Part shown: positions 15,057 to 16,847 of the stretch, one piece after another
Layout: every line of letters starts with the position of its first letter
How positions within the stretch are numbered: position 1 is the first letter of the stretch
Notes under the pieces: generated by a model
What the model saw: only the letters and a program-made list of their open reading frames with translations
Databases searched by the model: none
Told to the model about the DNA's origin: nothing
From: Armatimonadota bacterium
GTDB taxonomy: Bacteria; Armatimonadota; Fimbriimonadia; Fimbriimonadales; Fimbriimonadaceae
DNA length: 32,942 bases
Assembly (NCBI GenBank): GCA_016223145.1
Contig: JACRPN010000017.1
Location: 2,780-35,721 of the forward strand
Direction: 5' to 3'
Program-made: the position numbers and the translations under genes

Positions 15057-16847
15057 ATGCCGCAGATCGCTTTCGACCGCTATTACCGATACGAAGAGCT
15101 CACGGGGCTCCTCAAGGCTTACGAGGCGGAGTATCCCAATCTCGTCTCGGTGGCTTCGATGGGCAAGTCCTTCGAGGGCCGGGACATCTGGGTCGTTGCG
15201 GTCACCAACAAGGCCACCGGGCCCGCCGAAGAAAAGCCCGCCTTCTGGTGCGACGGCAACATCCACGCGAGCGAGGTCAGCGCCAGCACGACGGTCTTGC
15301 ACTTGTTGAACAAGCTGTGTTTGGGCTATTCCGGAAAGCCGCCAGACAGGTCCGAGAAATCCGACTTGTCCGACAAGATCAAGCGGCTCCTCGACACCCG
15401 GGCCATGTATCTGGTACCTCGCCTCAACCCAGACGGCGCCGAGTGGGCGCTGGAATCCCCGCCCCGCATCATCCGTTCCTCCACCCGCCCCTACCCCTAC
15501 GACGAGGACGACCCCTACGGCATCGAGCCAAAGGACGCCGATGGCGACGGGCGCATCCTCTGCATGCGCATCAAGGACCAGAACGGGCCTTGGAAGGTCT
15601 GCGTGCAAGAGCCCCGCATCTTGGAGCGACGCGACCCGACCGACGTCGGTGGCACGTATTTCCGAGTCCTGCCCGAGGGCCTGATCCACAACTGGGACGG
15701 CATGACCATCAAGGACCGAAAGCGCAAGCAGGGCCTCGACATGAACCGCAACTTCCCGAGTGCCTGGAGGCTGGAATTCGAGCAGCATGGCGCGGGGCCC
15801 TTCCCCACCAGCGAACCGGAGATCCACGCGCAGGTCAAATTCATCGCCGAGCACCCGAACATCTGCGGCGCGGTGTGCTTCCACACCTTCAGCGGCGTGC
15901 ACCTGAGGCCGCCCAGCCGCATGCCCGATGACGACATCCCGCCCGAGGACCTTTGGGTCTTCCAGAAGCTTGGCGACAAAGGCAAGGAGATGACGGGGTA
16001 CCCGGCCATCAGCAACTTCCACGAGTTTAAGTACCACCCGAAGGAGGTCATCACGGGCGTGTTCGACGACTGGATGTACGAGCACCGCGGCGTGTACTCG
16101 TGGACGACCGAGATCTGGTCGCCGCAGCGCCAGGCGGGCATTACCGACTACAAGTACATCGATTGGTTCCGCGAGCATCCGGTCGAGCACGACATTCAAA
16201 TGTTGAAATGGTCGGACGAGAAGTTGGAGGGTAAGGGCTACGTCGACTGGTATCCGTTCAGGCACCCCCAACTTGGCGAAGTGGAACTGGGCGGCTGGGA
16301 CTCTCACTACGCCTTCCGCAACCCGCCGCCGCGATACCTGGAGGCCGAGGTTGCGCCGCTCGGCGATTGGTGCATCTGGCAGGCGCTTTGCTCCCCAAAG
16401 CTGGAGCTGAGAGAAGTTAAGGTTGAAAGGCTCCCCTCCCTTGGTTTTGCCGAAGGCGAAACTGAGGGAGGGGCCGGGGGAGGGAGACCAGTGGCCCGTA
16501 TCCGCATCGCCGTTCAGAACACCGGCTGGCTGCCGACCAACGTGACCAAGATCGGCACGGACCGCAAGCTCTGTAGGGGAGTCACTTGTGAGATTGCCAA
16601 GGAAGGAGAAGACCGCAATCCCGAGGGGAAGAGCGCGCCCGAATGGCTGATCAGCGGCGAACTGCGCCAAATCGGGCCGCAGCTTGTCGGCTGGAGCCAC
16701 ACGGCGCCGGGCGGATTCGGCTGGCACAGCGACCCGACCGACGACGTGGCCGTTTTCGAATGGGTCGTCCAGGGCCCGGGAACCTATGCGTTCGTCGCAA
16801 GGCACGATCGAGCGGGAGTCGTAAGGACTTCGGTCACGGTCGAGTAG
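15057..16847 (+). CDS. M14 family zinc carboxypeptidase
   Basis: A 596-residue protein. The N-terminal two thirds are an M14 peptidase: zinc ligands His70 and Glu73 in NIHASEV and His276 in CFHTF, with catalytic Glu352 in TTEIWSP. LVPRLNPDGAEW and LDMNRNFPSAW are typical substrate-pocket motifs. No signal peptide is visible (MPQIAFDRYYRYEELTGLL), which is unusual for M14 and suggests a cytoplasmic enzyme or one exported by another route. Residues about 458-476 (PSLGFAEGETEGGAGGG) are encoded by a long hairpin repeat and form a linker. After it comes a beta-sandwich of CARDB/APHP type (VARIRIAVQNTGWLPTNVT). It removes C-terminal residues from peptides. Lying 22 nt after the ARC unfoldase, it could trim peptides made downstream of it, which is inference. 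Confidence 0.85.
   Translation: MPQIAFDRYYRYEELTGLLKAYEAEYPNLVSVASMGKSFEGRDIWVVAVTNKATGPAEEKPAFWCDGNIHASEVSASTTVLHLLNKLCLGYSGKPPDRSEKSDLSDKIKRLLDTRAMYLVPRLNPDGAEWALESPPRIIRSSTRPYPYDEDDPYGIEPKDADGDGRILCMRIKDQNGPWKVCVQEPRILERRDPTDVGGTYFRVLPEGLIHNWDGMTIKDRKRKQGLDMNRNFPSAWRLEFEQHGAGPFPTSEPEIHAQVKFIAEHPNICGAVCFHTFSGVHLRPPSRMPDDDIPPEDLWVFQKLGDKGKEMTGYPAISNFHEFKYHPKEVITGVFDDWMYEHRGVYSWTTEIWSPQRQAGITDYKYIDWFREHPVEHDIQMLKWSDEKLEGKGYVDWYPFRHPQLGEVELGGWDSHYAFRNPPPRYLEAEVAPLGDWCIWQALCSPKLELREVKVERLPSLGFAEGETEGGAGGGRPVARIRIAVQNTGWLPTNVTKIGTDRKLCRGVTCEIAKEGEDRNPEGKSAPEWLISGELRQIGPQLVGWSHTAPGGFGWHSDPTDDVAVFEWVVQGPGTYAFVARHDRAGVVRTSVTVE
16433..16473. repeat. Long hairpin repeat inside the M14 gene
   Basis: The arms 16433-16451 (starting CCCCTCCCTTGG) and 16455-16473 (ending GAGGGAGGGG) pair over all 19 positions as RNA: 16 Watson-Crick pairs and three G-U pairs, closed by a GAA triloop at 16452-16454. 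It is in frame and encodes a Gly/Glu-rich linker between the peptidase and its C-terminal domain. Confidence 0.7.

Follow-up and report, generated by a model that had tools for sequence, protein, structure and literature searches.

A dispersed hairpin repeat with a mirroring purine tail lies in frame in an M14 carboxypeptidase gene of an Armatimonadota bacterium

The insert in the M14 carboxypeptidase gene

The window, the whole 32,942-nt stretch of Armatimonadota DNA that was analysed, carries on its + strand a gene for an M14 zinc carboxypeptidase of 596 amino acids (15057-16847), identified by its open reading frame, by Pfam PF00246 (E 6.7e-45) and by orthologues. A hairpin element lies on the same strand, in frame within the 596 codons. 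Its pyrimidine-rich 5' arm (16433-16451, CCCCTCCCTTGGTTTTGCC) is defined by sequence, fold and family alignment, the GAA loop (16452-16454) by sequence and fold, and the purine-rich 3' arm (16455-16473, GGCGAAACTGAGGGAGGGG) by sequence, fold and stem covariation. Inspection of 16433-16473 and RNA folding bore out the original prediction of a 19-bp hairpin with a GAA loop and three wobbles: the two 19-nt arms pair at 19 of 19 positions, three of them as G-U. The minimum free energy of the RNA hairpin was -36.2 kcal/mol in a 61-nt stretch (z -4.15), and none of 200 shuffles was as good. Folded as DNA, the + strand reached -17.8 kcal/mol and the - strand -13.7 kcal/mol; the two are not equivalent, since what is a T-G wobble on the + strand corresponds to a C-A mismatch on its complement.

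The inserted unit is longer than the hairpin, and the prediction had missed its 3-nt spacer and 12-nt mirror tail. The spacer CCG (16474-16476, + strand) was recognized in the alignment of copies, and the tail that follows (16477-16488, + strand, GGGGAGGGAGAC) is a candidate third strand, matching the 3' arm in 10 of 10 purine-motif triplets. It is this overlooked tail that identifies the type of element. Judged from the ends of the family alignment, in which the repeat consensus terminates in GGGAGAC, and from the gap in orthologues, the whole unit spans 16430-16489 on the + strand (RLPSLGFAEGETEGGAGGGRP, residues about 458-478), with ends uncertain by several bases. The arm-tail motif occurs once in the window and in none of 30 window shuffles.

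The segment is absent from all 28 aligned M14 orthologues, which read ..VE-PIGNGAY-RIRF.. where the host reads ..VE-RLPSLGFAEGETEGGAGGGRPVA-RIRI.., and the net gain over a typical orthologue is 16 residues. Some residues of the loop were probably replaced, since orthologues mostly have 5 to 8 there and only about 3 are left here. This precise gap upholds the in-frame insertion of a palindromic repeat that had been proposed. AlphaFold modelled the protein with a mean pLDDT of 89. Residues encoded by the element (about 458-477) appear there as a loop of low confidence, falling below 50 at 467-474, which connects strand 449-459 to strand 479-488; the model thus predicts a disordered Gly/Glu-rich linker in a surface beta-turn. 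The linker had been placed exactly at the border between the peptidase and the beta-sandwich. In the model it sits one strand's length inside the C-terminal beta domain. The tryptic peptide expected from the sequence of the linker is LPSLGFAEGETEGGAGGGR(P).

A repeat family with matching arms and tails

A BLAST search with a 68-bp stretch hit 44 places in the same genome, a 3.87-Mb Armatimonadota draft in 23 contigs that stands near Fimbriimonadales. A covariance model built from 27 copies gave 140 raw matches on both strands, which merged into 94 places, 92 of them with at least 8 of 10 basal pairs. The element is therefore a DNA repeat some 57-60 nt long, dispersed in about 90 copies over its own genome, in a census that rests on the matches and limited stretches around them and is not exhaustive. 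Neither outcome that the original prediction had named as speaking against an insertion was found: other genomic copies exist, as the 44 BLAST places and about 90 non-overlapping model matches attest, and no aligned orthologue has the linker. Within the order, the model matched 63 of 113 genomes (E 0.01); when 291 genomes of the phylum were sampled, matches at E 1e-4 were almost confined to that order. Named relatives are Armatimonadota draft genomes, mostly Fimbriimonadaceae or Fimbriimonadales. The relatives compared for copies were selected by the score of a model that included the tail, which biases the relatives found. A search of Rfam gave no family at gathering score, and sub-threshold matches to animal microRNA families were taken as chance.

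Across the family, 98.8% of stem cells were paired, and 20 double-sided changes were counted against 5.1 in shuffles, a level reached in 0 of 500. True compensatory changes between members map to position 12 and to the apex of the stem. The wobbles are another matter. They had been read as compensating changes that reveal conservation of the hairpin within the M14 gene, a reading we reject: the tandem U-G/G-U pairs are nearly invariant family-wide (25-27 of 27 copies), are thus family consensus, and were therefore inherited on insertion.

Alignment of the copies showed that the bases 3' of the hairpin mirror the 3' arm, as in CTGAGGGAGGGG-TT-GGGG(A/T)GGGAGAC; in the window copy, arm, spacer and tail read CTGAGGGAGGGG-CCG-GGGGAGGGAGAC. 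The spacer is 2 nt long, usually TT, in most copies and 3 nt in the subset to which the window copy belongs. Subfamilies with other arms bear other tails (GAGGAGGGGG-TT-GGGGGTGGAGAC; AGGAGGAAGGGG-TT-GGGGATGGAGGTC), and arms of relatives, written 3' to 5' (GGGGGGAGAG, GGGAGGGGAG and GGGAAGGGGG), each come with a matching tail. Differing arm/tail pairs include GGGGAAGGAG/GGGGATGGAG, GGGAGGGGAG/GGGTGGGGAG and GGGGGGAGAG/GGGGGGAGAG. The tail base is mostly G where it faces an arm G and mostly A or T where it faces an arm A, and these are permitted triplets of the antiparallel purine motif. Because the purine tail mirrors the 3' arm, the strand could form a purine-motif foldback triplex (G.G-C, A.A-T, T.A-T).

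The match was quantified in 163 copies with 27 distinct arms. They averaged 9.33 of 10 triplets against 8.47 when tails were permuted among copies (sd 0.06, max 8.65, 1000 permutations), and 142 of the 163 scored 9 or 10. With one copy for each of the 27 arms, the mean was 8.52 against 7.53 (sd 0.14, max 8.15, 5000 permutations). Because copies within a genome share descent, these figures are not counts of independent events. At the level of sequence, they show coevolution of arm and tail across copies.

Some copies have a longer form of about 79-86 nt, in which an extra inner segment (GCTTCCGAGTCCCG..CGGGAAG) lies between the arms and the outer stem and tail are unchanged (L033, L034, L036, L235, L236, L238, L239 and others). 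The hairpin is directly preceded by the dinucleotide AG in 66 of the genome's own 92 copies and in 22 of 23 copies of G012, a relative from another genus, and the two bases before the AG vary. TCCGG often adjoins the element in G012, and does so at own copies L007, L022, L029 and L030. It is found on both sides in 9 of 23 G012 copies versus 3 of 92 own copies, and may represent a terminal repeat or a favoured target.

Copies inside other genes

About 17 genes of the genome carry in-frame copies with Pfam support. Five of the 17 encode aminoacyl-tRNA synthetases: a GluRS/GlnRS-type enzyme, LeuRS, a ValRS/IleRS-type enzyme, AlaRS and PheRS beta. The other hosts are the M14 gene, aconitase, a 6PGDH-like protein, GH2, a NosD/PKD protein, a MurC-Ddl fusion, GH20, an amidohydrolase (two copies), MazG, Ham1 and TrmD, together with a GH38-type protein, whose Pfam support is the weakest in the census. 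Both orientations occur among the in-gene copies. Insertion relative to orthologues was seen in M14, aconitase, TrmD, AlaRS and the GluRS/GlnRS-type gene; the aconitase gained 14-16 residues in an otherwise strongly conserved stretch, compared with seven orthologues. By sequence comparison, the element has what defines an in-frame palindromic insertion, namely a repeat within a gene, a frame that is kept and absence from orthologues.

Among the copies examined in G012, six genes were hosts of this kind, those for LeuRS, CysRS, MetRS, UvrA, GcpE and S-adenosylhomocysteine hydrolase. In both genomes a copy in LeuRS directly follows the same GVEFEM motif, and the hairpins are different. Further hosts are MnmG (G019), an acyl-CoA dehydrogenase (G009) and a glycosyltransferase (G092). 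On the assumption, drawn from usual protein lengths, that tRNA synthetases account for about 1.1% of coding sequence, 5 of 17 hosts corresponds to a binomial probability near 1e-6; for the smaller G012 genome, taking 1.6%, 3 of 6 gives a value near 1e-4. The apparent insertion bias toward tRNA synthetases is a lead rather than a result, because it was noticed post hoc and Pfam support favours conserved genes. Should it hold, it would raise the question of whether these genes attract the elements or the enzymes merely tolerate linkers.

Several loci are of note individually. A single 995-aa leucyl-tRNA synthetase frame of G012 holds five copies in both orientations (L290, G012:C1:1819100-1823000). 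In the only AlaRS gene found in the genome of the window (G000:C11:135138-138104), about 67 residues, the conserved ELCGGCHV motif among them, have given way to the element (L027, G000:C11:137622-137680) without loss of frame; either a true deletion or a misassembly at the repeat site could account for the gap. In TrmD (L003, G000:C1 near 211211), the element and a run of GCGGATT repeats together add about 36-42 residues relative to orthologues. Copies with a 3-nt spacer lie in genes in 6 of 7 cases versus 12 of 87 for the others (hand count; Fisher p about 1e-4). A coding subfamily defined by this spacer was nevertheless discarded; this is a tendency and not a rule, and many in-gene copies have a 2-nt spacer.

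Interpretation and relation to other repeats

Copy number, insertion relative to orthologues, open frame, pairing and the coevolution of arm with tail are direct observations. The reading that we favour, and regard as probable, is that a dispersed repeat composed of a hairpin, a spacer and a mirroring purine tail, and capable of forming a foldback triplex, landed in frame in the M14 gene, where it is tolerated as a linker. A single strand would fold back twice to give an intrastrand purine-motif triplex, and this triplex, or a closely related single-strand fold, may be what is maintained in the element. We infer that the element acts as DNA on one strand, during replication or transposition, because the wobbles weaken the other strand. 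Its spread may be linked to single-stranded DNA, and our best guess is a single-strand or replication-linked process over cut-and-paste, since the net gains in M14 and aconitase fall a few residues below the length of the element. The host protein would be neutral to the linker. On a wider scale, foldback-triplex repeats may be a class of mobile DNA in which coevolution of stem and third strand preserves a triple-helical fold of the single strand, and which in Fimbriimonadales-type bacteria has repeatedly entered core genes in the form of in-frame linkers, most of all those for tRNA synthetases; we offer this generalization tentatively, with somewhat less than even confidence.

A rather unlikely alternative would have a RAYT or an IS200-type Y1 transposase mobilize the repeat as a REP- or MITE-like element, with the tail as part of the recognition site. 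The genome does have 11 Y1-domain matches over the Pfam cut-off, among them one RAYT that passes the NCBIfam cut-off and another that falls short of it; moreover, the AG 5' of the hairpin in most own copies recalls GTAG tags, and one strand folds better than the other. However, no full GTAG tag is seen, the two bases before the AG being variable, and the element adjoins none of the 12 Y1 loci: a model search of these loci gave only one poor match, of 15.6 bits, at L075. Hairpins of another kind flank the two RAYT genes.

An RNA hairpin acting in the mRNA, through stability, attenuation or pausing, with the DNA tail incidental, would agree with the high stability of the RNA fold and with G-U pairs that are tolerated as in many REPs. 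We consider it improbable, given that the tail coevolves with the arm though it has no Watson-Crick partner in the hairpin, that in-gene copies run in both orientations and that Rfam holds no family for it at gathering score. Purine-motif triplexes are chiefly a property of DNA.

It is very unlikely that a G-quadruplex (GGGAGGGGTTGGGGTGGG) is the conserved feature. A motif of four G3+ runs is present in 100 of the 163 copies, but in only 2 of the 37 that have the GGGGGAGG arm, and these still score about 9.6 of 10 arm-tail triplets; the complementary pyrimidine arm is also conserved.

We give equally little credence to a domesticated peptide with a selected function. In the right half, sense copies in genes do mostly use a common frame (..ETEGG(V/A)G..), and the peptides encoded in M14 and in the 6PGDH-like gene are nearly identical. 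Yet one sense frame contains TGA, which limits the usable sense frames without any selection on the peptide; antisense copies encode quite different peptides (SPTPTPPSVSA..), the host proteins are unrelated, and the AlphaFold model places the insertion in a disordered loop. Finally, although the genome is a draft in 23 contigs and the arms are low in complexity, an assembly artefact or a chance hairpin is extremely improbable, as the reading frame and the surrounding gene are both intact, many copies stand in other unique contexts and the window shuffles produced no such motif.

The favoured triplex-capable repeat combines two kinds of element that are already known, in-frame palindromic repeats and intrastrand triplex motifs. 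To our knowledge, the latter have been on record since about 2000, and no function for them has gained acceptance. The case for selection on such triplexes had come mainly from abundance, and varied arms with matching tails provide a direct evolutionary test; natural copies in essential enzymes also supply insertion sites with protein-level boundaries. Within the open-access literature, what is new is triplex repeats inside genes, arm-tail coevolution and the apparent tRNA-synthetase bias. Like PIT (Hoyne and Maher), TM and TMECO motifs, the element has a pyrimidine stretch, a purine stretch and a mirrored second purine stretch suited to a class II purine triplex, many copies per genome and a tie to local genome instability. 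With 10 of 10 triplets, the window copy lies within the PIT/TM range of 8-15 purine-motif triplets with at most 1 mismatch, and the second spacer (2-3 nt) lies within the loop limits of 1-6 nt (ITxF) or 0-10 (Hoyne). In contrast, the first loop, at about 21 nt against 3-6 in PIT/TM, forms a paired stem of its own, and the hairpin stem reaches up to about 20 bp, unlike theirs.

TMECO, printed as CCCTCNCCC N3-6 GGGNGAGGG N3 GGGNGAGGG, occurs 3610 times in 262 proteobacterial genomes, is always intergenic in E. coli MG1655 and is linked to local rearrangement (Holder et al. 2015, PMC4666352). The TM motif formed a stable triplex in vitro, and no stable triplex was detected in duplex DNA or by in vivo footprinting (PMC4666352). 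The present element is not TMECO: most of its arms read CCCCTCCCTTG or CCCCCTCCTTG and are followed by tails that match, and copies lie in frame in genes of Armatimonadota rather than intergenically as in E. coli MG1655.

Rickettsia RPE likewise are palindromic insertions, in frame in unrelated protein genes and encoding an extra segment, though in a different phylum; the parallel is drawn from their description. We know of no mirror tail described for RPE. The original view that in-frame palindromes were known in Rickettsia and would be new here is too narrow, as Di Nocera et al. (2013, PMC3733652) described in-frame REPs from several phyla, with tRNA synthetase genes and uvrA among the hosts. 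REPs of the GTAG and CGTC superfamilies (PMC3733652) are also short, dispersed, imperfect palindromes, some in frame and some in inverted pairs; the present element differs in having AG rather than GTAG at its foot, an extra 12-nt mirror tail and a location away from the RAYT genes of its own genome.

Other repeats share this genome. The hairpins that flank the REP-associated tyrosine transposase genes (L076 and L077; for example TGTAGCCCAGGCG..CGCCTGGGC) differ from the triplex repeat, and therefore the genome seems to hold ordinary GTAG-type REPs besides it. A second lineage-specific in-frame repeat lies in the M14 gene itself (15348-15377, + strand; RSEKSDLSDK, TCCGAC-type units, about 11 aa) and is absent from nearly all orthologues. 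Tandem units of the GTCNGAC type recur in the genome (window 15348-15377, L002, L016, L027, L187, L215, L220 and others), some of them apparently in frame in genes, for example as SDQSDKSD-like linkers in LeuRS.
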